DNA from: Bacillota bacterium
GTDB taxonomy: Bacteria; Bacillota; Sulfobacillia; Sulfobacillales; JAIMBI01
Direction of reading: 5' to 3'
Length of the DNA stretch: 51,812 nt
NCBI GenBank assembly: GCA_021846505.1
Contig: JAJZWV010000019.1
Span: 1-51,812 of the forward strand
The position numbers and the translations under genes are program-made. Below the pieces are notes generated by a model. That model did no database searches and was not told where the DNA came from. It worked only from the letters and a program-made list of their open reading frames with translations. Below, in pieces: positions 361 through 43,625 of this stretch. Position 1 is the first letter of the stretch. Each line of letters starts with the position of its first letter.

Positions 361-2376
361 TTGTTGGCCGATTTTCGTGTGGTGGCGCCCTTCGAGCCGG
401 CGGGGGACCAGCCCAAGGCCATTTGCGAGCTGGCGGAGGGATTTTTGGACCAAGGGCTGAAGCGCCAGGTGCTGTTGGGCGTGACCGGGTCCGGCAAAAC
501 CCTGACGATGGCGCACACGATTGCCCGCGTGGGGCTGCCCACCCTGGTGATGGCCCCTAATAAGACGCTGGCCGCGCAGCTGGCGGGGGAGCTGAAGGCG
601 TTTCTGCCCGACAACGCCGTCGAATACTTTGTGAGCTACTACGACTACTACCAGCCGGAGGCGTACATCGCCCAGAGTGATACGTACATCGAAAAGGACG
701 CCCAAATCAACGACGAAATCGACAAGCTGCGGCACTCGGCCACCTCTGCGCTGTTTGAGCGGCGGGATGTGGTGGTAGTGGCCTCCGTGTCGTGTATTTA
801 TGGCCTGGGGTCGCCCGAGGACTACCGGCAGCAGGTGCTGTCGGTGCGCGTGGGCATGGAGCGCGACCGGGACAGCCTGCTGAGAAGCTTAGTGGCGGTC
901 CGCTATGAGCGCAACGACGTCAACTTCGTGCGCGGGAAGTTTCGCGCCAAGGGCGACGTCGTAGAGGTGTTCCCCGCCAACCAGGGCGAGCAGGCGGTGC
1001 GCATCGAGTTTTTTGGCGACACCATTGAGCGCATTCGCGAGTTTGATCCCCTCACGGGCGAAGTGCTGGGCGAGCGCCAGTATGTGGGCATCTACCCGGC
1101 GTCGCACTACGCCACGCGCAAGGAGCGGATGCTGCCGGCCTTGGACAGCATCCGCGCCGAGCTGCAGGAGCGGCTCGCGGAGCTCAAGCGCCAAGATCGG
1201 CTGCTGGAAGCGGCGCGGCTGGAGCAGCGCACCCTGTATGACCTGGAGATGCTGGAGGAAGTGGGCCACTGCCCGGGCATCGAAAACTACTCGCGGCACC
1301 TGACCGGCCGGAAGGCGGGCGAGGCGCCGTATACGCTTTTGGATTACTTCCCGGGCGAGTTTCTCACCATCATGGATGAGTCTCACGTGAGCGTTCCGCA
1401 GGTGCGGGGGATGTATCACGGCGACCGCTCTCGCAAGGAGTCGCTGGTCGAGAACGGGTTTCGCCTGCCGTCGGCCTTTGACAACCGGCCGCTCACGTTC
1501 GATGAGTTTCAAAGCCGCATTGGGCGGGTGATGTATGTGTCGGCCACCCCGGGGCCGTATGAAGTGGAAGCCGCCACTCGGGTGGTGGAGCAAATCGTGC
1601 GCCCCACCGGCCTGTTGGACCCAAGTGTGGAGGTGGTGCCCACCACGGGGCAAATTGACCACTTGCTGGGCAAAATCCGCGACCGGGTGGCGCGGTCGCA
1701 GCGCGTGCTGGTGACCACGCTCACCAAGCGCATGGCGGAGGACCTCACCGAGTACTTCCGAGAGCACGGCGTGAAAGTGCGGTACCTGCACTCCGACATC
1801 GACACCTTGGAGCGGATGGCCATCCTGCGCGATCTGCGGATCGGCGAATTTGATGTGCTGGTGGGCATCAACCTGCTGCGCGAGGGCTTAGACTTGCCCG
1901 AGGTGGGCTTGGTGGCCATCTTGGATGCCGACAAGGAAGGCTATCTGCGCTCGGATACGTCGCTGGTGCAAACTATTGGGCGCGCGGCCCGCAACCTGGA
2001 AGGGCATGTCATTCTGTACGCCGACCGCATGACCGACTCGATGCGCCGGGCCCTGGCGGAGACCGACCGGCGGCGCGCCATCCAGCACGCGTTCAACCGA
2101 GAGCACGGCATTACGCCCCAAAGCGTGGTGAAGGCCGTGCGCGACGTCATTGCGGCCACGCGCCCGGTGGACGAGGCCGCCTCCCTGGCCGACAAGCCGC
2201 TGCGGGAGCTGTCCGCGAAGGAGCGCATCCGGGTGGAGGCGCGCCTGAAGAAAGAGATGAAAGAAGCCGCCCGGCAGTGGGAGTTTGAGCGGGCCGCCGC
2301 GCTGCGCGACCTCCTGATGGAGCTGGAAAGCCAGCGGCCGGTGCGGTCGGTGTCAGGGGGGCGGTCGCGTGCCTAA
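361..2376 (+). CDS. uvrB: Excinuclease ABC subunit B (UvrB)
   Basis: UvrB is the damage-verifying helicase-like subunit of nucleotide excision repair. UvrA loads it onto DNA and it then recruits UvrC. The 671-residue protein has normal family length. Visible motifs are Walker A GVTGSGKT (about 40-47), the Tyr-rich beta-hairpin ([14 protein letters not shown]), which clamps one DNA strand, a DESH box, the helicase motif VI region QTIGRAARN, and a C-terminal UVR motif ([10 protein letters not shown]) that binds UvrC. TTG codons occur at 361 and 364; the second is better spaced from AGGAGGG at 351-357, so the true start may be 364. The end overlaps uvrA by 8 nt, implying translational coupling. 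An SOS-type promoter lies upstream. Confidence 0.97.
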
Positions 2377-10653: not shown

Positions 10654-11544
10654 ATGGCGCGGCTTCTCATCATCACCGGGCAGTCGGGGGCCGGCCGGAC
10701 CCTGATTCTACGGGCGTTTGAGGACTTGGGCTACTTCTGCGTGGACAATTTGCCGCCGGCCCTGCTGCTGCGGTTTGCCGACCTGGTTCGGAAAGCCCCC
10801 GAAGTCGTGGGGGCCGCCATCGTGATGGACGTGCGCGGCGGCAACTTCTTTCAGGACGCCGAGCAGGCGCTGGACGACCTGGCGGATGCCGGGCAGCCCT
10901 ATTCACTGGTGTTTCTCGAAGCGGAAGAGGCCGTCCTGATTCATCGCTACAAGGCGTCGCGCCGAGCGCACCCGCTCGGGTCGCGGACGTCGCTCACGGA
11001 CGCCATCCGCCAGGAGCGGGAGCGCCTGGAGAACTTGCGAGGCCGCGCCGACGTCGTGCTGGACACCTCGAGCCTCACGCCTCATCAGGCGCGCGACCGT
11101 GTGGCGCAGCTATTTGCGCTGGACCCGGGGGGCCTGCCGTTTCAGGTGCGGGTGGTGTCGTTTGGCTACAAGCACGGCCTGCCGATGGACGCAGACCTAG
11201 TGTTTGACGTGCGGTTCTTGCCCAATCCGCACTATGAGGCCGAGCTCAGACCCCGCACCGGTGCGGACCCGGCCGTCCAGGATTTTGTGCTCAATTGGCC
11301 GGTGACCCAGGGCACACTGGCGCGCCTGTCGGAGCTGCTGGACTTCTTGGTGCCGCTGTACCGCCACGAAGGCAAGGCGTCGCTGGCGGTGGCCATCGGG
11401 TGCACGGGCGGCCGCCACCGGTCGGTGGTGGTGGCGGATCGGCTGGCCAGCTATTTGGAGCGGCAGGGCGTGCCGGTCGAAGTGGAGCACCGCGACATCG
11501 GGACGCCCCCGGATGGGGATGACACCCTGGGGGGCCAGCCTTAG
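10654..11544 (+). CDS. rapZ: RNase adapter protein RapZ (YvcJ family)
   Basis: RapZ/YvcJ proteins are P-loop nucleotide-binding proteins. In enterobacteria RapZ senses glucosamine-6-phosphate and controls glmS mRNA; in Bacillota the role is less clear (competence, nucleotide hydrolysis). The 296-residue protein has normal length, with Walker A GQSGAGRT at 9-16 (Arg in place of the usual Lys, as also occurs in actinobacterial members), the family block FEDLGYFCVDNLP, and the C-terminal GCTGGRHRSV block of the GlcN6P-binding domain. It is the first gene of rapZ-yvcK-whiA; its TAG overlaps the GTG of yvcK by one base. Note that glmS here has its own ribozyme (41493). Confidence 0.95.
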   Translation: MARLLIITGQSGAGRTLILRAFEDLGYFCVDNLPPALLLRFADLVRKAPEVVGAAIVMDVRGGNFFQDAEQALDDLADAGQPYSLVFLEAEEAVLIHRYKASRRAHPLGSRTSLTDAIRQERERLENLRGRADVVLDTSSLTPHQARDRVAQLFALDPGGLPFQVRVVSFGYKHGLPMDADLVFDVRFLPNPHYEAELRPRTGADPAVQDFVLNWPVTQGTLARLSELLDFLVPLYRHEGKASLAVAIGCTGGRHRSVVVADRLASYLERQGVPVEVEHRDIGTPPDGDDTLGGQP

Positions 11545-12866
11545 TGTGGCGCTGGCTCGCACCAGGCCTCCGCTTGAAGCGCTACTTGGCCATGGTGGGC
11601 CTGGGACTCTTGGCAGTGGGCGCGGCCATTGCGCTGGAGTCGGGCGAAGCCACCGCGCCCTTTCGGGCCTGGACGCGTCATGGGGACCTGCTGCTGTGGG
11701 TGTTGCTTTTGGGCATCGCCATCGTGCTGGTGGGGGCGCTGCAGCTGGTGCGGTCGCTGGCGCAGGCGTTTGACGTCACGGAAGATTCGCTGGCGCGGAT
11801 GCTGCTGGTGCGGCGGCGGGGCACGCGCGGGCCCAAAGTGGTGGCGGTGGGCGGCGGCACCGGCCTGCCGGCGCTGCTCCGGGGCCTGAAGGACTACACG
11901 GCCAACCTCACCGCGATTGTCACCGTGGCGGACGACGGCGGCAGCTCGGGGCGCTTGCGCGGCGCGATGGGCATGCTGCCCCCGGGTGACCTACGCAACT
12001 GCCTGGTGGCGCTGGCGGATGCCGAGCCGCTGATGCGGGATTTGTTCCAATATCGGTTTCAGCAGGGCGAGCTGACCGGCCACAGCTTTGGCAACCTGTT
12101 TCTGGCCGCCATGCGGGAAACCACCGGCGACTTTGTCACCGCGCTGCGTGCGTCCTCACGCGTGCTGGCGGTGCGCGGCGACGTCTTTCCCGCCACGCTG
12201 GACTCCATCGAGCTGGTAGCGGAGCTGGAGGACGGATCCGTGCGCCGGGGAGAAAGTGTGATTGGCCAGAGCACCTCTCGCATCCGGCGGGTGTGGCTCG
12301 ATCCCAGCGACGCCACGCCGCCCGTGGAAGCCGTGCGCGCGATTATGGGTGCTGACCTTTTGGTGCTCGGCCCCGGGAGCCTCTACACCTCCGTGATTCC
12401 CAGCCTCTTGATTGGGCCCATCGCCGAGGCCGTTCGACAGACGCGCGCCGCCACCGTGTATGTGGCCAATGTGATGACGGAGCCCGGAGAAACCGGGGGC
12501 TACACCGCCTATGACCACTTCAAGGCGCTGGAGGACCATGTCGGCCCAGGGATTATCGACGCCGTCCTGATCAACGACGAGCCGGTGCCCGAGGCCGTGC
12601 GGGATCGATATCGGGCCAGCGGCGCCGCGCCGGTGGAGCGCGGAAGCGGCTTCCCGCGCCGGGTGCTGGTGGTGCACGCGCCGCTGCTGGAGGTGGCGGG
12701 CGTCGTGCGGCACAACTCCGACCGGGTGGCGCGCGCCACGCTGCGCCTGCTGCTGCGCCTGAAACCCGACTGGGCTCGCCGCCGGCCCTGGGAGGGTCTG
12801 ATGCTGGACCAGCGACTGCGCCAGGCACAGGAGGGGGACGCCCATGGACTGGTCCCACACGCGTGA
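11544..12866 (+). CDS. yvcK: Gluconeogenesis factor YvcK/MgfK (CofD-like)
   Basis: YvcK binds UDP-sugars and is needed for growth on gluconeogenic carbon and for cell-wall homeostasis. The 440-residue protein is longer than the ~320-residue Bacillus protein because it has an N-terminal extension with two membrane segments (about 14-32 and 49-70), so it is probably membrane anchored. The CofD-like fold begins at VVAVGGGTGLPALLRGL (GGGTG 103-107), followed by TVADDGGSSGRLR and PPGDLRNCL. It starts with GTG overlapping the rapZ stop and overlaps whiA by 23 nt, so the three genes are translationally coupled. Confidence 0.94.
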   Translation: MWRWLAPGLRLKRYLAMVGLGLLAVGAAIALESGEATAPFRAWTRHGDLLLWVLLLGIAIVLVGALQLVRSLAQAFDVTEDSLARMLLVRRRGTRGPKVVAVGGGTGLPALLRGLKDYTANLTAIVTVADDGGSSGRLRGAMGMLPPGDLRNCLVALADAEPLMRDLFQYRFQQGELTGHSFGNLFLAAMRETTGDFVTALRASSRVLAVRGDVFPATLDSIELVAELEDGSVRRGESVIGQSTSRIRRVWLDPSDATPPVEAVRAIMGADLLVLGPGSLYTSVIPSLLIGPIAEAVRQTRAATVYVANVMTEPGETGGYTAYDHFKALEDHVGPGIIDAVLINDEPVPEAVRDRYRASGAAPVERGSGFPRRVLVVHAPLLEVAGVVRHNSDRVARATLRLLLRLKPDWARRRPWEGLMLDQRLRQAQEGDAHGLVPHA

Positions 12867-13674
12867 GGTGAAGGCCGAGCTGTGCCGCGTCGCCTGGCGG
12901 CGGGCTGATGAAGCGCGCGCGGAGCTGGCCGGCTTGACCGGAACCCTGGGCGCGCCGGATGGCGCGGGACTGCTCGAGCTGACGTCGCCGGTGGTGGCCC
13001 GGCGGGTGTTTGCGCTGGCCAAGGCTGTGGGTCTGGAGCCGCAGCTGGTGTCGGATCCCGGCCGACATCGCTATACCGTGGCGGTAGCCCGCATGCCCGC
13101 GCTGCCGGCAGGGCGCGAGCCGCGGGCGCTGCTCCGCGGAGCTGTGCTGGCCCGGGGCTACGTGGCCGCCCCGGGCCGCCCGTACCACCTGGAGGTGGTG
13201 GCGCCCTCCCCGGAGTGGGCGGCCATGCTGCAGCGGGCGATGGCGCAGCTGGGGCTTGCAGCCCAAGTGGCGGTGCGGCGGCAGCGGTCGGTCGTCTACG
13301 TCAAAGACCACGAGCAGGTGGCGGCCCTGCTGGCGCACTTGGGGGCGCACCGCGCGCAGCTCAAGCTGGAGGCGCAGTCGGTGGTGCGGGCGATGAAGGG
13401 CGACGTGAACCGCCGCGTCAACGGGGAGGCCGCGAACGTCCGCCGGACCGTGGAAACCGGTGTGGCGCAGGAGCATGCGCTGCGGGCGGGACTGAGCTGG
13501 CAAAGCTGGCCGGAAGACTTTCGCCGCCTGGCCAAGCTCCGGCTGGCTCACCCGGATTGGACGCTGGAGCAGCTGGGCCGTGCGATGACGCCGCCGCTCA
13601 GCAAGCCCAGCGTGGCGTATCGGCTGCGGCGGCTGCTCACCGGAGTCCCTCCGCGGGGGCGGCGCGGCGAATGA
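12844..13674 (+). CDS. whiA: WhiA-family DNA-binding regulator
   Basis: WhiA controls sporulation septation in Streptomyces and affects division and chromosome segregation in Bacillus. The 276-residue protein has an N-terminal degenerate LAGLIDADG-like half (from MDWSHTREVKAEL) and a C-terminal helix-turn-helix (about 215-265, including LRLAHPDWTLEQLGRAM and PPLSKPSVAYRLRRL). It is about 30-40 residues shorter than typical members but keeps both halves. ATG 12844 lies inside the end of yvcK with GGAGGGGG before it. It is the last gene of its operon and converges on a pseudogene 83 bp away. Confidence 0.93.
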   Translation: MDWSHTREVKAELCRVAWRRADEARAELAGLTGTLGAPDGAGLLELTSPVVARRVFALAKAVGLEPQLVSDPGRHRYTVAVARMPALPAGREPRALLRGAVLARGYVAAPGRPYHLEVVAPSPEWAAMLQRAMAQLGLAAQVAVRRQRSVVYVKDHEQVAALLAHLGAHRAQLKLEAQSVVRAMKGDVNRRVNGEAANVRRTVETGVAQEHALRAGLSWQSWPEDFRRLAKLRLAHPDWTLEQLGRAMTPPLSKPSVAYRLRRLLTGVPPRGRRGE

Positions 13675-36595: not shown

Positions 36596-38253
36596 CGGCG
36601 GCGCCGTGCCACCGCGCGCCACGCCGGCCGCGCGGCGGCTGCTGCCCACGCCAAGAGGGCCGATAGGGTCCAGCCCAAGCGGGTGAGCCAAATACCCAGG
36701 GCTAAGAGGCCCACGGTGTAAATGGCGCCCGCGACGGCGTCGAGGCCCAGGTCTACGCGGTGCAGCGCGTCTTGGCCGTCGGGCCACTGGATGCTGGCTT
36801 CCAGCTCGCCATCCTCGATGTGGCGCAGCACGCGGGTGGCCATGGGGGGCAGTGCCAGCACCGACTGCCCCCAGTCCTTCGCGCGGCCCCAGGCATATCC
36901 CGCCGGGCCGCCGGCTTCCTGCGTCACGAACCGGCGCGCATAGGGGGTGAACAGCTTCACGAGGTTCACCGAGGGGTCCAGGTGGGTGGCAACCCCCACC
37001 AGCATGCTGACGGCCCGGCCCAGAAACGCAAACTGGGCCGGAAACTGGATGGGCTCTTCGCGCACCAGCTGCTCGATGTCGCCCAGCATGGCTTCGACAT
37101 CGGTCTGGCGCATATCCTGCAGCGTCTCGGCGTAGTAGCGCTCCAGGAGATAGGCAGCTCGCGAGCGGAGCCGCCGGCGGTCTGCCTCCGGGTGCAGCAC
37201 CCCCAGGGCAAACAGGCTGTCCACCACGACATTGGGCCGACGCTCCGAGAGGCCCACAAACAGGCGGCGCATCTGGCGCCGCGCGGCCGCGGAGATGTGG
37301 CCGACCATGCCAAAGTCCAGCAGCACCAGGGTGCCGTCCGGCTGGACCAGCAGGTTGCCGGGGTGCGGATCCGCGTGAAAGAAGCCCGTGTCCATGACCA
37401 TGTGGAGATACAGGTGGATGACGCGCTCGGCCAGCGCTTGCCGGGAGATGTCCCACGCATCCAGCTCGGCGACGTCCGAAATTTTGACGCCGTCCAGCCG
37501 CTCCATGGTGAGCACGCGCCGCGTGGAGCGGTCGGGGTAGACATGCGGGATGCGAAGCTCGGCTAAGTCACGAGTTTCCGAGCGGATGCGCGCGGCGTTG
37601 GCGGCCTCGGCTTCGTAGTCCAGCTCTTCCAGCACCGTGCGCCGAAATTCGGCTAAGAGACGCGGCAGGTCAAAGGTGCGGCTCAAGTTGGTGAAGCGGT
37701 TGGCCAGCAGCACCACCAGCGACAGCGCCCGCAGGTCGGCGTGGACGATGCGCTCAATGTGAGGCCGCTGCACTTTGACCGCCAGCGCCTGGCCATCCCA
37801 GCCGGTTGCCCCGTACACCTGGCCCAGCGAAGCCGACGCGATCGGGGTGGGGTCAAACGACAAAAAGGCTTGGTCCAGGGGGCCTAGCTCCTGCTCCAGC
37901 AAGGCACGGACCTCTTGCCACGGCGCTTCCCGCACCCGGTCTTGCAGGGTGGCCAATTCATGGACGAACACTTTGGGCAGCAGGTCCAGCCGGCTGGACA
38001 GGAACTGCCCGACCTTGACCACCAACCCGCCCATGACTTCGGCCGTGACCCGGATCTTCACCGCCTGGCGGTGCATGGTGGCCTCCAGCCGGGCTTCGCC
38101 GGCCGTGGGGCCATACAGCCGAAACACCCAGCGCAGCCGCCAATAATCGATGAGGATCGACAGAAAGAGGCGCAGCACCATGGCGATGCGCACCGCAGGG
38201 CGCGAGGGCGGGCTCCCGCGGTGGTCGGGCGAATGCGGTATACTAGTGGACAT
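36592..38253 (-). CDS. ubiB: ABC1/UbiB-family atypical kinase
   Basis: UbiB-family proteins are membrane-tethered atypical kinases/ATPases needed for quinone synthesis or lipid handling. Family marks in this 553-residue protein: the KxGQ motif VVKVGQFLSSRLDLLP (from about residue 79), which replaces the usual Gly-rich loop, ALAVKVQRP with the ATP lysine, HADPHPGNLL (catalytic loop) and LLDFGMVG. The C-terminus has two hydrophobic helices (YTVGLLALGIWL and the following one). ATG 38253 with GGAGGC is a better start than the longer open frame. In this quinone-using organism a menaquinone-related role is likely. It diverges from cdaA. Confidence 0.9.
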   Translation of the reverse strand: MSTSIPHSPDHRGSPPSRPAVRIAMVLRLFLSILIDYWRLRWVFRLYGPTAGEARLEATMHRQAVKIRVTAEVMGGLVVKVGQFLSSRLDLLPKVFVHELATLQDRVREAPWQEVRALLEQELGPLDQAFLSFDPTPIASASLGQVYGATGWDGQALAVKVQRPHIERIVHADLRALSLVVLLANRFTNLSRTFDLPRLLAEFRRTVLEELDYEAEAANAARIRSETRDLAELRIPHVYPDRSTRRVLTMERLDGVKISDVAELDAWDISRQALAERVIHLYLHMVMDTGFFHADPHPGNLLVQPDGTLVLLDFGMVGHISAAARRQMRRLFVGLSERRPNVVVDSLFALGVLHPEADRRRLRSRAAYLLERYYAETLQDMRQTDVEAMLGDIEQLVREEPIQFPAQFAFLGRAVSMLVGVATHLDPSVNLVKLFTPYARRFVTQEAGGPAGYAWGRAKDWGQSVLALPPMATRVLRHIEDGELEASIQWPDGQDALHRVDLGLDAVAGAIYTVGLLALGIWLTRLGWTLSALLAWAAAAARPAWRAVARRRR

Positions 38254-38338
38254 CCGGCCGCCTCCGCGGTTTAGAGTAACACAGGCGGCTAGCGCGCCGG
38301 GACGGGACGGACGTAGCGGAAAACCCGGGTGGTGCGCG
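38254..38338. promoter_or_regulatory. Divergent promoter gap, ubiB / cdaA
   Basis: An 85-bp gap between outward-reading genes. A TATACT (38239-38244) inside the ubiB start region could be a forward -10 for cdaA, about 95 bp before its ATG, but has no matching -35. No operator is recognised. Confidence 0.25.
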
Positions 38339-39160
38339 ATGCTTTCGTTTATTTCAGAGATGTCGTGGTCTCGATGGCTTTTGTCCGTAGTGGACATCGC
38401 CATCGTGAGCTATGGCTTTTACCGACTCTTTCGCTTGATTCGTGGGACCCGTGCCGTGCAGCTGATCAAAGGCATTGTGCTAATTTTGGTAGCGGTGCCG
38501 GTGTCGCAGTACCTTCACCTGTACGCCACCCATGAAATCCTCGCTGCCATCCAAACCATGCTGATTGTCGCGATTCCGATTGTGTTTCAGCCGGAGCTCA
38601 GGCGGGCGCTGGAGCAGATTGGCCAGGGGCGCTTCTTTTCCGAGCCGCTCTTGGGCCATGAGCCCGTTGACATGTCCCAGGTGATTGATGAGGTGGCCCG
38701 GGCGGCGGATCATCTGGCGCACTCGCGCACCGGGGCGCTCATTGTCATGGAGCGGCAGACCGGGTTGAATGAATATGTAGCCACCGGCGTGCCGCTGGAG
38801 GCCAAGGTATCGTCGGCGCTGCTGGAAAATTTGTTTGTGCCCAACACGCCGCTGCACGATGGTGCCGTGATCATTCGGGGGGACCGGCTGGTAGCTGCGG
38901 CGGCGTTTCTGCCGCTCACCGACGCGGCGCGCCCCGGCAGTGAGCTCGGAAGCCGCCACCGCGCCGCGCTGGGCGTGAGCGAGCAGTCCGATGCTGCCGT
39001 GGTGGTGGTGTCGGAGGAGACGGGCTGGATTTCGCTCGCGGTGGAAGGCAAGCTCAACCGGCGCCTGGAGGACCGGACGCTGCGCGAAATGCTCCAGCGG
39101 CTGTACCGGGGGCGCAGCTATAACGGGCTCCGGCTGTTCACACGGGGCGCGGCGCGATGA
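38339..39160 (+). CDS. cdaA: Diadenylate cyclase CdaA (c-di-AMP synthase)
   Basis: CdaA joins two ATP into the second messenger c-di-AMP, which controls potassium and osmotic balance and cell-wall integrity. The 273-residue protein has three N-terminal membrane helices (about 13-33, 40-58 and 66-83) and the DAC domain with the catalytic DGA motif (174-176, LHDGAVII) and RHR (206-208, GSRHRAALG). ATG 38339 has a weak ribosome site; the longer open frame is not supported by homology. It is the first gene of cdaA-cdaR-glmM-glmS and overlaps cdaR by 4 nt. Confidence 0.95.
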   Translation: MLSFISEMSWSRWLLSVVDIAIVSYGFYRLFRLIRGTRAVQLIKGIVLILVAVPVSQYLHLYATHEILAAIQTMLIVAIPIVFQPELRRALEQIGQGRFFSEPLLGHEPVDMSQVIDEVARAADHLAHSRTGALIVMERQTGLNEYVATGVPLEAKVSSALLENLFVPNTPLHDGAVIIRGDRLVAAAAFLPLTDAARPGSELGSRHRAALGVSEQSDAAVVVVSEETGWISLAVEGKLNRRLEDRTLREMLQRLYRGRSYNGLRLFTRGAAR

Positions 39161-40071
39161 CCGATCGGATTCTGGAAAACGACACCGCGCTCAAAATTCT
39201 ATCGCTGCTGGTGGCCATTGCGATTTGGCTGCAGGTCAACAGCAGTGCGGCACCGCGGCAGGTGGAGCGCAAGCTGGGGCCGGTGCCGGTTACGTGGCTG
39301 GCGGCCACCAACCACTACACGGTGCTGAGCATGCACCCCGCGTCGGTGACGATCGACATCAAGGGGCCGCCCACATCGGTGTCGCAGTCCATTCATGCCG
39401 AGGCATGGGTGGACTTGGCCCACATCACCAAGCCGGGCACCTATTCGCTGCCGGTCAGTGCCTCGGTGCCTCCGGGCACCAGCCTGGTGTCGGTCAGCCC
39501 CTCCGACGTGACCGTAACGGTCGACCGCATTGTGGCCAAAAAGTTTAGCATCACGGCGGTGCCGGTGGGGCACGTGGCCAGCGGCTACGGCATCGTGTCC
39601 ATGACCCCCGTCAGCACAGCCGTGGAAGTGTCCGGCCCCTCGCATGATGTGGCCGCAGTGGCCCATGTGTATGCTCGCGTGAATGTCAGCGGCCAAACCA
39701 GCAACCTGAACGCGCAGGAAGCGCTGGTCGCGGTGAACGCGGCTGGCCACACCGTGCCACAGGTCACGGTCAGCCCCAGCCTGATGAATGTGGCGGTCAC
39801 CGTGTCACCGGAGAAGGTGCTGCCGGTGGTGGTGAAGTACCACGGCACGCCGGGCACCGGGTATGTGGTGGGGCCCATCACGGTGGACCCGCGGCACGTC
39901 ACGGTGTATGGCCCCGCGTCGGCGCTGTCCGGTTTGACCGCGATGGACACCCAAGCCATCACGATTTCGGGCCGCACCACATCGGTGACGAAACGGGTGG
40001 GGCTGGTGCTGCCCAGCGGGGTGACGGCGGCGCCGTCGACGGTGCGGGCCACGATTTCGATTGGGCCGTGA
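39157..40071 (+). CDS. cdaR: CdaA regulatory protein CdaR (YbbR-domain)
   Basis: CdaR is a membrane-anchored extracytoplasmic protein that modulates CdaA. The 304-residue product has one N-terminal membrane helix (LKILSLLVAIAIWLQVNSS), then several YbbR repeats, each of about 80 residues and beta-rich (for example LGPVPVTWLAATNHYTVL, KFSITAVPVGHVASGYGI and VLPVVVKYHGTPGTGYVV). Its ATGA start overlaps cdaA. glmM follows after 73 nt. Confidence 0.92.
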   Translation: MTDRILENDTALKILSLLVAIAIWLQVNSSAAPRQVERKLGPVPVTWLAATNHYTVLSMHPASVTIDIKGPPTSVSQSIHAEAWVDLAHITKPGTYSLPVSASVPPGTSLVSVSPSDVTVTVDRIVAKKFSITAVPVGHVASGYGIVSMTPVSTAVEVSGPSHDVAAVAHVYARVNVSGQTSNLNAQEALVAVNAAGHTVPQVTVSPSLMNVAVTVSPEKVLPVVVKYHGTPGTGYVVGPITVDPRHVTVYGPASALSGLTAMDTQAITISGRTTSVTKRVGLVLPSGVTAAPSTVRATISIGP

Positions 40072-40144
40072 CCGACCCGCCGCCGCGGCATAGGCATGAG
40101 ATCTCAGCGCAGGAGCCGGGGAGCACCGAGGGGAGCAGCGCCGC

Positions 40145-41479
40145 ATGTTTGGTACCGATGGAGTGCGCGGCCAGGCGCCGCGCGAACTGACCCCGGAGCT
40201 GGCCCTGGCGGTCGGGGCGGCGATGGTAGCCGAGCTGCCGCCTGCGCCGCTGGTTCTGTTGGGCCGCGACACGCGCGTCTCCGGGCCGCTGCTGGAGGCC
40301 GCCGCGGTGGCGGGCATTGCCGCGGCCGGCGGCACGGCCAAGCTGCTGGGCATCGTGCCGACGCCGGCGGTGGCGGCGCTGGTGCCTCGCCTCGGGGCGG
40401 ACGCCGGCCTCGTCATCTCGGCCAGCCACAACCCGCCGGAGTACAACGGGCTGAAGCTGTTGGATGCGGGCGGCCGCAAGTGGCCCCCCGAGCGCGAGCA
40501 TGCCGTGGCCGAGCGCGTCGCGCGGCGTGAGCAGGCCTGGGTGGCTTGGGACGCGGTGGGCGGCGCCCAGGCGGCCTCGGATCACGTGGCACTTTATCGG
40601 GACAGCCTGGTGGCCCGATTTGCTGGCCGCGTGGGCCCCGGGCGGGTGGTGGTAGACCTCGGCTCCGGCGCTGCCGTAGCGACGGTGCCGCCGGTGCTGG
40701 AGGCGCTGGGCTTTGAGGTGGCGGTTTTGAACGGCACCGCCGATGGGCGCCGCATCAACCAGGGCACCGGGGCCACGCACCCTCATGTCGTGGCGCGCGC
40801 CGTGGTGGAGCAGGGCGCTGATGTGGGCTTCGCCTTTGATGGCGACGCCGACCGTGTGATTGCCGCAGGCGCTGACGGCCAAATTGTTGATGGCGACGGC
40901 ATCCTGTACCTGCTGGCGCGCGGCTTGGACGCTCAGGGGCGCCTGCCGCACCAGGAGGTGGTGGGCACGGTCATGGCCAACTTAGGGCTGGAGCGAGCGC
41001 TGGAGGCGAGCGGCCTCCACCTCCACCGCACGCCGGTGGGAGACCGCTGGGTAGCTCGCGCCATGGGCGACCGGGGCACCGCAGTGGGGGGCGAGCAGTC
41101 GGGCCACATCATTTTGTCGGAGTGGGCGGTGACGGGCGACGGGCTCCTGACTGCGCTGGCCATCCTGGCGGAGATGCGGCGCACGGGTGCGCCGCTGGCG
41201 TCGCTCGTTGCACCCATGCCGCGCTACCCGCAGCGGCTGGACAATGTGCGCCTGCCGGCCGTCGGCTTTCGGTGGGAGGCGCTGCCGGGGGTGGGCGACG
41301 CCCTGGCGGCGTGCACCGCGGCGCTGGGCGATGACGGCCGGCTTGTAGTCCGGGCTTCCGGAACAGAGCCCCTGTTGCGTATCATGATTGAGGGGAGGGA
41401 TGCGGCGGTCGTGCAGAGGTGGGCCGACCGGCTGACCACGGTCGTTCGGCAGGCGCTGACGTCGGAACAGCGCGGCTGA
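40145..41479 (+). CDS. glmM: Phosphoglucosamine mutase GlmM
   Basis: GlmM converts glucosamine-6-phosphate to glucosamine-1-phosphate on the way to UDP-GlcNAc and peptidoglycan. The 444-residue protein begins MFGTDGVRG, has the phosphoserine active-site motif ISASHNPPEYNG (Ser about 94), the metal loop FDGDADR and the C-terminal phosphate-binding RASGTEPLLRIM. In other Bacillota GlmM binds and inhibits CdaA, which fits the gene order. It ends only 13 nt before the glmS ribozyme cleavage-site nucleotide. Confidence 0.97.
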   Translation: MFGTDGVRGQAPRELTPELALAVGAAMVAELPPAPLVLLGRDTRVSGPLLEAAAVAGIAAAGGTAKLLGIVPTPAVAALVPRLGADAGLVISASHNPPEYNGLKLLDAGGRKWPPEREHAVAERVARREQAWVAWDAVGGAQAASDHVALYRDSLVARFAGRVGPGRVVVDLGSGAAVATVPPVLEALGFEVAVLNGTADGRRINQGTGATHPHVVARAVVEQGADVGFAFDGDADRVIAAGADGQIVDGDGILYLLARGLDAQGRLPHQEVVGTVMANLGLERALEASGLHLHRTPVGDRWVARAMGDRGTAVGGEQSGHIILSEWAVTGDGLLTALAILAEMRRTGAPLASLVAPMPRYPQRLDNVRLPAVGFRWEALPGVGDALAACTAALGDDGRLVVRASGTEPLLRIMIEGRDAAVVQRWADRLTTVVRQALTSEQRG

Positions 41480-41492
41480 ATTTGGAGCCTGA

Positions 41493-41640
41493 AGCGCCGG
41501 AGCCCGGGAGAGCCCGGGCTGACGAGGAGAGGGATCTCGAAATTTTCGGCGGGTGACCTCCGGCTTCTCGGCGGCCGATAGCCACGGGACAAAGGGTCGG
41601 CAGCAATGCCGCCACAAAGCCGTGTGGCCGAGCCCGACAA
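41493..41640 (+). ncRNA. glmS self-cleaving ribozyme/riboswitch
   Basis: This region matches the glmS ribozyme almost base for base in its core. A(41493)-GCGCC forms the cleavage site, with the cut expected between A41493 and G41494. A perfect 8-bp P1-type hairpin follows (41501-41508 with 41513-41520), then GACGAGGAGAGGGATCTCGA and AATTTTCGGCGGGTGACCTC, the conserved pseudoknot core. GGCT..AGCC and GTCGG..CCGAC arms fit P3 and P4. Glucosamine-6-phosphate acts as the cofactor for self-cleavage, exposing a 5'-OH end that in Bacillus leads to RNase J decay of glmS mRNA. It sits right after glmM, so it can also cut the cdaA-glmS co-transcript. The rest of the 41641-41804 leader shows no gene or clear structure. 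Confidence 0.93.
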
Positions 41641-41804
41641 TTTTCTATCGAACGGTCCCGCCCGAGGGCTGCCAGCACGGCTGGCCAGCTCTCTATGGGG
41701 CTGTTCGCACTGCCAAGCAAACGGCGAGAGGACAAAAGCGAGCAGCGGCGCGAAAAAACGCGGAGATGCGCACGCGAATCGGCGTGAAGAAAGAAGGACG
41801 GCAG

Positions 41805-43625
41805 ATGTGCGGGATTGTCGGGTACGTAGGGCGCGAGGCGGCGCTGCCATTTTTGCTGGAGGGATTGTCGGCTCTCGAGTATCGCGGCTATGACTCCGCC
41901 GGCGTGGCGCTGGTGGACCAGGCGGGCATTGCCCAGGTGAAGCAGGCGGGGCGGCTGTCCAGCCTGCTGGGCGTGGTGGACAGCCTCCCGGGCGGGGCGC
42001 ACTGCGGCATTGGCCACACACGGTGGGCGACGCACGGCGCGCCCACCGATGCCAATGCCCACCCCCACACCGACTGCCACGGGCGGGTGGCGGCGGTCCA
42101 CAATGGCATCATCGAAAACTACCAGCCGCTCCGGCGGATGCTGCAGGACGCGGGCCATGAGTTCCAGAGCGAAACCGACACCGAGGTGATTCCGCATCTC
42201 TTGGAGCACTACTATCAGGGGAACTTGTGGGAAGCGGTGGCGGCGACCGCCCGGGACCTGGACGGCGCGTATGCGTTTTTGGCGGTGGCCGCCGACGACC
42301 CCATGACGATGGTGGCCGTCCGGGAAGCCAGCCCGCTGGTGATTGGGCTGTCGGACCACGGCACTTATGTGGCGTCGGACTTGACCGCGCTGGTGCCCTA
42401 CACCCGGAGTGCGCTGGTGCTGGACAATGGCGAGATGGCCATCATCCGGGCTGATGGCGTGGAGATGCGCGACAAAGCCGGGGCGGCGGTCGAGCGCGCG
42501 CCGTTTCAGATTGACTGGAACCGGGAGCAGGCGTCGCGCGGCGGGCATGCCCACTTCATGCGTAAGGAGATTTTCGAGCAGCCCGACGCATGGCGGGCGA
42601 CCATGGCGGGACGCGTGGCGCCGGATGGGCAGCTGGCGGTGGACGAGCTCGGGCTCACGGCCGAGGACTTGGCGTCCGTGCAGCACGTCCGGCTGGTGGC
42701 GGCCGGGAGCGCGTATCACGCGGGGCTGGTGGCGGCCCACCTGCTGGAGCGGCTGGCGGGCCTCCCCGCGGCCGTGGAGGTGGCTTCCGAGTTTCGGTAC
42801 CGCGACGCGGCGCTGCCGGCCGGGACGGTGGTGTGGGCCATTTCGCAGTCGGGAGAAACCCTGGACACGCTGGCGGCGGCCGACCTCGCGCAGCGGAGAG
42901 GGCTTCCCGTGTGGGCCATCACCAACGTGGTGGGCTCCACCCTCGCGCGGCAGGCAGATCGGGTAGCGCTGAATCGGGCGGGGCCGGAAGTGTCGGTGTG
43001 CTCCACGAAAGTTTACACGAGCCAAATTGTGCTGCTGACGCTGTGGACCTTGGCACTGGCGGCGGCGCGCGGCCAAGCCCATCCCGAGGTGGCGGCAGCG
43101 CTCGCATCCCTGCCACCGCACGGAGAGGCGTGGCTGTCGTCCCCGGCCGGGGTGCTCGAAGAAGTGGCGCGGCGGCTGGCCAGCGCGCCCAGTGTGTTTT
43201 ATGTGGGCCGCGGCCAGGACTATCTCTCGGCGCTGGAGGGCCAGCTGAAGTTCAAGGAGATCACCTATATCCACGCGGAGGCGTACCCGGCCGGCGAGCT
43301 GAAGCACGGCACCCTGGCCTTAATCGAGCCGGGCGTGCCGGTGGTGGCGGTGGTGTCCAACCCGGCGCTGGTGGCCAAGACGCGCTCCAACATTATGGAG
43401 GTGCGGGCCCGCGGGGGCTTCGTGGTGGGCATTGTGGCCGATGAGCTGGCCGAGGGATTGGCCGACGTGCTGGATTGCGCAATTCCGGTGCCCACCCTGG
43501 CGCCCGACGTCATGCCCATCCTGATGGCGCTGCCTATGCAGCTTTTGGCGTATGAAACGGCGCGGCAGCTGGGGGTGGACATCGACAAGCCGCGCAACCT
43601 GGCCAAAAGCGTCACGGTGGAATAG
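41805..43625 (+). CDS. glmS: Glutamine-fructose-6-phosphate aminotransferase GlmS
   Basis: GlmS makes glucosamine-6-phosphate from fructose-6-phosphate and glutamine, the committed step to UDP-GlcNAc. The 606-residue protein begins MCGIVGYVGREA, with Cys2 as the glutaminase nucleophile after Met removal. The amidotransferase half has RWATHGAPTDANAHPH. Two SIS sugar-isomerase domains follow (WAISQSGETLDTLAA and FKEITYIHAEAYPAGELKHG), and the protein ends KSVTVE as typical. ATG 41805 follows AAGGACG; the longer open frame upstream overlaps the ribozyme and is not coding. It is regulated by the ribozyme upstream. Confidence 0.97.
   Translation: MCGIVGYVGREAALPFLLEGLSALEYRGYDSAGVALVDQAGIAQVKQAGRLSSLLGVVDSLPGGAHCGIGHTRWATHGAPTDANAHPHTDCHGRVAAVHNGIIENYQPLRRMLQDAGHEFQSETDTEVIPHLLEHYYQGNLWEAVAATARDLDGAYAFLAVAADDPMTMVAVREASPLVIGLSDHGTYVASDLTALVPYTRSALVLDNGEMAIIRADGVEMRDKAGAAVERAPFQIDWNREQASRGGHAHFMRKEIFEQPDAWRATMAGRVAPDGQLAVDELGLTAEDLASVQHVRLVAAGSAYHAGLVAAHLLERLAGLPAAVEVASEFRYRDAALPAGTVVWAISQSGETLDTLAAADLAQRRGLPVWAITNVVGSTLARQADRVALNRAGPEVSVCSTKVYTSQIVLLTLWTLALAAARGQAHPEVAAALASLPPHGEAWLSSPAGVLEEVARRLASAPSVFYVGRGQDYLSALEGQLKFKEITYIHAEAYPAGELKHGTLALIEPGVPVVAVVSNPALVAKTRSNIMEVRARGGFVVGIVADELAEGLADVLDCAIPVPTLAPDVMPILMALPMQLLAYETARQLGVDIDKPRNLAKSVTVE

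Follow-up and report, generated by a model that had tools for sequence, protein, structure and literature searches.

A glmS ribozyme with variant linkers beside the cofactor pocket, located between glmM and glmS in a genome of the order Sulfobacillales

The glmS ribozyme is a model cofactor-dependent ribozyme whose core is often called almost invariant; one review states an identity of the core above 97% (PMC7824784). In Bacillus subtilis, the cdaA-cdaR-glmM-glmS operon is reported to bear a ribozyme controlling glmS (PMC6171935). GlcN6P is described as the general acid of the reaction and the pocket that binds it as preformed, and three point mutations near the site abolished cofactor dependence in vitro (PMC6273943, which names glmS(AAA) as a cofactor-independent mutant). 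The cleavage product is reported to decay via RNase J1 (PMC7125110, PMC7824784), and the sensitivity of core and IL4 positions to change has been described (PMC11602151). In the core numbering of Andreasson et al. (PMC7125110), used throughout this work, P2 terminates in the pair G38-C61, positions 39-42 and 57-60 are linkers, and the P2.1 strand 43-45 belongs to the cofactor pocket.

We analysed a window of 51,812 nt, that is, the whole stretch of DNA under study. Its plus strand carries cdaA (diadenylate cyclase, 38339-39160; TIGR00159, 251.6 bits, cut-off 188.8), which overlaps cdaR (YbbR-like, 39157-40071; Pfam YbbR, 109 bits) by 4 nt. These genes are followed by glmM (phosphoglucosamine mutase, 40145-41479; TIGR01455, 458.1 bits, cut-off 447.55), the ribozyme (41482-41637), a leader read from the sequence (41638-41804) and glmS (GlcN6P synthase, 41805-43625; TIGR01135, 712.9 bits), whose product starts with MCGIVGYVG. 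A simple scan detected neither promoter-like sites in 38000-42000 nor plus-strand terminator-like sites between glmM and the glmS start, a result that is not evidence of co-transcription. Compared with that of most relatives in the order, the leader in the genus of the window is longer by approximately 90-150 nt; it is open in the reading frame of glmS and showed no match to a known RNA family. An earlier reading made from the sequence only had listed glmM, cdaA, cdaR, glmS and rapZ, and profile matches in the window demonstrated that all of them are present. The genes rapZ, glmR (yvcK) and whiA are consecutive at 10654-13674 of the same contig, about 28-31 kb upstream of glmS. That reading had set rapZ beside the ribozyme as the gene of a GlcN6P sensor; rapZ is indeed there (10654-11544), but it lies in the rapZ-glmR(yvcK)-whiA cluster about 30 kb from the ribozyme and nothing links RapZ to it.

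The covariance-model scan proposed earlier for this locus was run (cmscan against Rfam) and returned a full-length match to the glmS ribozyme (RF00234, model positions 1-167) at 41482-41637 of the plus strand, with 73.3 bits (curated threshold 37 bits) and an E-value of 4.9e-15. This was the sole Rfam match above threshold within the window, and the genome (3.58 Mb, 119 contigs) contained no second RF00234 match. The genome encodes one full GlmS, the product of the gene 3′ of the ribozyme. Alignment to RF00234 places the predicted cleavage dinucleotide of the AGCGCC motif at 41493-41494 (plus strand), with A-1 at 41493 and G+1 at 41494; G41494 is thus the predicted first nucleotide 3′ of the cut, as had been proposed from the letters, and the distance of 13 nt from the glmM stop (41479) to A-1 (41493) also agrees with that proposal. 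The AGCGCC cleavage segment and the GACGAGG and CGGCGG segments are identical in 33/33 ribozymes of the order. The RNA is sited in the 5′ leader of glmS, a location which is typical of glmS ribozymes rather than defining. The element at 41482-41637 is a genuine glmS ribozyme in its customary place.

The fold was analysed in an alignment of the 33 ribozymes of the order (from 42 genomes), counting the pseudoknotted structure. Paired cells amounted to 98.3% (shuffled mean 91.5), changes on both sides were present in 15 of 33 pairs (shuffled mean 8.2) and the covariation score was 0.295 (0.148 shuffled). None of 500 shuffles reached the pairing, the both-side changes or the covariation score of the real alignment, and slid structures were only 30-47% paired. 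All 8 pairs of the P2.1/P2.2 double pseudoknot form in 33/33 sequences (P2.1, 41523-41525 with 41537-41539; P2.2, 41495-41498 and 41500 with 41548-41551 and 41547, 41499 being bulged); as both helices are invariant, no covariation is readable in them. P1 is the perfect 8-bp stem reported earlier (41501-41508 with 41513-41520), and two of its four basal pairs counted vary on both sides, as do one of four pairs in P2 (41529-41532 with 41557-41560) and one of five in P3 (41561-41565 with 41573-41577), all cells of these three helices being paired. In the P3.1 pseudoknot (41567-41571 with 41628-41632) four of five pairs vary on both sides and 98.8% of the cells are paired. The P4 arm (41582-41627) varies on both sides in 7/7 pairs of its inner stem, contains the IL4 adenines in ACAAAG at 41589-41594 and 41614-41619, of which the majority are invariant across the order alignment, and has a GCAA tetraloop (41603-41606). 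The outer P4 stem was left out of the count, as the MAFFT alignment offsets it by one base for the family of the window. All of these elements are on the plus strand. Free folding of the ribozyme RNA alone was not significant (z = -1.0), a weak signal that is expected because the RNA is pseudoknotted; the core was misfolded because of the pseudoknots, and free-energy folding was discarded as support. The case against a chance resemblance rests on the covariance-model score and on covariation. Family membership, fold, site, place and gene order are direct observations at this locus.

The peripheral arms had been described as unusually GC-rich. The GC content of the ribozyme is 68%, against 72% in its flanks. 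In 47 ribozymes (50 parsed rows, of which G051, G052 and G057 were dropped), ribozyme GC tracked flank GC (Spearman 0.80 for the whole RNA, 0.65 for P1 and 0.76 for P3-P4). The window ribozyme had residuals of -0.3 SD (whole RNA) and -0.2 SD (P3-P4), while that of P1 was +1.9 SD, the highest of the 47. The description consequently holds for P1, which alone is mildly GC-rich for its genome, and fails for P3-P4 and for the RNA as a whole. The GC-richness of the peripheral arms is mostly base composition, and an adaptation through GC-rich arms was dropped as the main point, since composition follows the flanks.

The real peculiarity of this RNA lies in the variant linkers of its core, overlooked by the sequence-only reading. 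The core had been considered nearly perfect; the catalytic segments are present, but the linkers 39-42 and 57-61 show concerted departures from the consensus. The window reads G38-A-U-C-U43 on the 5′ side and G57-G-U-G-A61-C62 on the 3′ side. Canonical cores have A42, an N-N-N-A linker and the pair G38-C61; the window has C at 42, A at 61 and a linker 1 nt shorter. Its 5′ linker is G38-A39-U40-C42 (41533-41536, plus strand; canonical G38-N-N-N-A42) and its 3′ linker is G57-G58-U59-G60-A61 (41552-41556, plus strand; canonical mostly G57-A/G-U-G-C61). The linker sequence is identical in all 33 ribozymes of the order, and GGANC at 38-42 together with G58-U59-G60-A61 was found in the window and in its 32 relatives. 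As the linkers are invariant within the order, no covariation is readable there. Core position 42 is Bsu A52 by our own count, and we take it to be Tte A50.

Wider sampling revealed that the two sides of the variant are coupled. The 5′ GGAUC and the 3′ GGUGA co-occur in 51 of 126 distinct cores and never appear apart; GUGA at the 3′ side was present in 51/51 variant cores, 0/69 canonical cores and 0/6 cores of a third type (0/75 others). In a scan of the class with a pattern that demanded a non-A at position 42 and left the 3′ letters free, 46 of 154 genomes matched: 40 had GGATC, all 40 with GTGA, and 6 were of the third type, without GTGA. In the phylum, a pattern allowing UCGA or UCGG, again with free 3′ letters, matched 26 of 398 genomes (25 with GGANC and GGTGAC, from 16 families, and 1 of the third type), and reversed control patterns gave 0 matches. 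Residue 40 of the 25 phylum variants was T in 23, G in 1 and A in 1, and positions 38, 39, 42, 58, 60 and 61 were constant. Position 42 was A in 144, C in 5 (all variant) and U in 1 of the 150 matches listed, out of at least 173 core-pattern matches in the phylum sample. Among the matches listed, position 58 was G in every variant, whereas the 145 non-variant matches divided into 87 with A and 58 with G; A61 was also present in two canonical matches (G189 and G315), there opposite U38; and covariation between 41 and 58, sought in the canonical cores, was not seen. The third and rare core form has U at 42 (..AUUCGA) and no A61 (loci L145, L146, L147, L150, L181 and L182). No description of the variant linker type was found in the glmS ribozyme literature searched; the main survey, McCown 2011, lay outside that search and may list it. 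No discussion of A42 was found in the text searched.

The variant is most likely, on the evidence of its letters, a second core sequence type with rebuilt linkers between P2 and the pocket, having G38-A39-N40-C42 opposite G58-U59-G60-A61, compared to G38-N-N-N-A42 opposite R58-U-N-C61 in the canonical type. In the structure that we propose, P2 would be extended through G38.A61 and A39.G60 (a tandem G.A), N40.U59 and a new Watson-Crick pair C42-G58; the variable nucleotide 41 would be lost, and the continuous helix would hold the pocket without A42. The strict 5′/3′ coupling, the fixed G58 and the free N40 favour this model, and a fixed G58 is what a C42-G58 pair would require. Nearest-neighbour energies gave the model no support (variant P2 strands -5.3 kcal/mol versus -9.5 in the canonical type, the extra C-G pair gaining only 0.6), by a method that covers tandem G.A pairs and tertiary contacts poorly. 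We keep the continuous helix solely as a model, which we infer because of the 5′/3′ coupling.

The sequence makes it very probable that this RNA, with its variant-linker core, works as a glmS ribozyme and acts on glmS in cis, and the element at 41482-41637 is most likely active and GlcN6P-dependent. By analogy with B. subtilis and with crystal work, from which cleavage, cofactor and decay are taken, abundant GlcN6P would bind the preformed pocket and act as general acid, and cleavage would fall between A41493 and G41494. The glmS mRNA 3′ of the cut, starting with a 5′-OH, would then be degraded, and the cdaA-cdaR-glmM part would have its own 3′ end. It is plausible, as in B. subtilis, that cleavage uncouples the decay of glmS from that of cdaA-cdaR-glmM. 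The 51 distinct variant cores are followed by glmS (45), nagB (3) or a contig end (3); as 45 precede glmS and 3 precede nagB (n = 48), the ligand should still be GlcN6P. The 69 distinct canonical cores are followed by glmS (63), FBP aldolase/phosphatase (4), glnA (1) or glmM (1).

The three nagB cases (G163, G197 and G323; 94-97% complete) belong to one genus and have the order glmM - glmS ribozyme - nagB (L173, ribozyme 1742-1895 with nagB 1915-2769; L174; L175), with RF00234 scores of 88.7-102.8 bits. NagB was identified by TIGR00502 in two of these genomes (288 and 284 bits) and by tblastn in the third (86% identity). No full GlmS was found in the three; the best TIGR01135 matches reached 114-117 bits (cut-off 418) and were partial, covering the first 224-227 positions. 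The nagB-linked ribozyme probably regulates a NagB that works in reverse to produce GlcN6P. Seven of the 16 genomes in the family of these cases have the ribozyme; it stands before nagB in 3 and before glmS in 4. In another family (f127), 4/5 genomes have a canonical ribozyme before the fructose-1,6-bisphosphate aldolase/phosphatase gene (L241, 2-175 with 378-1502; L255, L256 and L257; genomes G408, G545, G543 and G544) and 3/5 have a variant before glmS; the enzyme of G408 matched NF041126 with 592 bits. Both core types are present in G084, G408 and G544, the variant being at glmS each time. In G084, a glmS ribozyme (L177, 2266-2418, minus strand) is located directly 5′ of glnA (glutamine synthetase, 862-2274, minus strand). 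This glnA copy is weak because its contig is 4.9 kb long and the contamination of the genome is 7%, and it is possibly an assembly or contamination artefact. One further genome (G425) has two ribozymes in one operon, cdaR - ribozyme - glmM - ribozyme - glmS (L186, 1941-2094 and 3598-3751).

A tentative reading of these arrangements, which we regard as rather doubtful, is that glmS ribozymes of two structural types occur in Bacillota, the variant seen here having a junction of tandem G.A and C42-G58 with its own cofactor response. In the dual-type genomes, the variant would govern the GlcN6P-making enzyme (glmS, or nagB in the absence of GlmS), with the canonical type governing the substrate-supply enzymes (FBP aldolase/phosphatase for fructose-6-phosphate, glnA for glutamine), one metabolite setting several genes at different thresholds.

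A related explanation, possible although with the odds clearly against it, is that the variant core alters cofactor behaviour, through GlcN6P affinity, a wider cofactor range, or catalysis in part by metal ions of the kind seen in the evolved glmS(AAA). A42, which is affected by the change, adjoins the P2.1 strand 43-45 of the pocket (PMC7125110), so that a loss of cofactor dependence is conceivable. In 3/3 dual-type genomes (G084, G408 and G544), moreover, the variant is at glmS and the canonical type at another gene, as if they were tuned differently. However, these are only three genomes, two from one family, and may reflect a single event, and the genes 3′ of the variant still make GlcN6P. 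The metal-dependent glmS(AAA), evolved in vitro (PMC6273943), demonstrates that the mechanism can be altered by a handful of letters close to the pocket, here three adenosine mutations, with the fold unchanged; evidence for such behaviour in the natural variant was not found.

It is improbable that this is an ordinary ribozyme in which the linker letters reflect neutral drift, of no functional consequence, in a portion of P2 that tolerates change. P2 is reported to rearrange and to tolerate many mutations, P2 mutants being rescued by U39G and by mutations of A33 (PMC7125110), and relatedness accounts for much of the clustering, as the core label needs just 6 changes among the labelled rows of a quick GlmS tree (103 rows). 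Drift, however, would break the 5′/3′ coupling, which is seen in 51/51 against 0/75 cores and across 16 families of the phylum sample, and the A at position 42 in 144/150 of the matches listed indicates that this position is not tolerant. In the same tree the 36 rows of the order, 31 with the variant and 5 lacking a ribozyme, cluster in a single starred group. The tree does not distinguish between gain, loss and transfer, because 36 of the 100 inner branches are left open and the starred ones force only 4 changes, even counting the ribozyme-less rows; multiple independent origins of the variant were discarded as a claim.

The ribozyme is present in 33 of the 42 genomes of the order, always of the variant type. 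A contig scan with GlmM yielded distant relatives only and was set aside. Five of the 9 genomes without it have glmM beside glmS and no RF00234 match; these clean natural losses (L188-L192, in G016, G030, G032, G014 and G026) are a ready comparison for the role of the ribozyme. In the other four, GlmS was not found (G018, G023 and G036) or was only partial, at a contig edge (G040). A decayed, inactive ribozyme, which the lowish family score (73.3 bits) and the five losses might suggest, is very unlikely, given that the catalytic segments and pseudoknots are invariant or covarying over 33 sequences and that the losses suggest that an unneeded copy gets deleted, not kept intact.

The preferred reading, a functional glmS ribozyme with variant linkers, makes this recurrent natural rebuilding beside the pocket a ready experiment for separating the core letters needed for chemistry from those that hold the pocket. 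The dual-type genomes and the copies at nagB, fbp and glnA could provide an example of a single metabolite that regulates its own synthesis together with the supply of its substrates. Should the variant prove to behave as canonical cores do, the locus adds just another ordinary glmS ribozyme at the expected position.

Compared to the B. subtilis operon (PMC6171935), the locus is alike in gene order and in having a ribozyme placed to control glmS, and it differs in core type. The RNA shares with the RF00234 ribozymes of Thermoanaerobacter tengcongensis and B. subtilis the cleavage motif, P1, the P2.1/P2.2 double pseudoknot, the P3/P3.1 pseudoknot, the P4 internal-loop adenines, a GNRA-type tetraloop and the placement before glmS. 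By contrast, it differs from both in the linkers 39-42 and 57-61, where C replaces A42, the 5′ side is 1 nt shorter, G38.A61 stands instead of G38-C61 and G58 is fixed.
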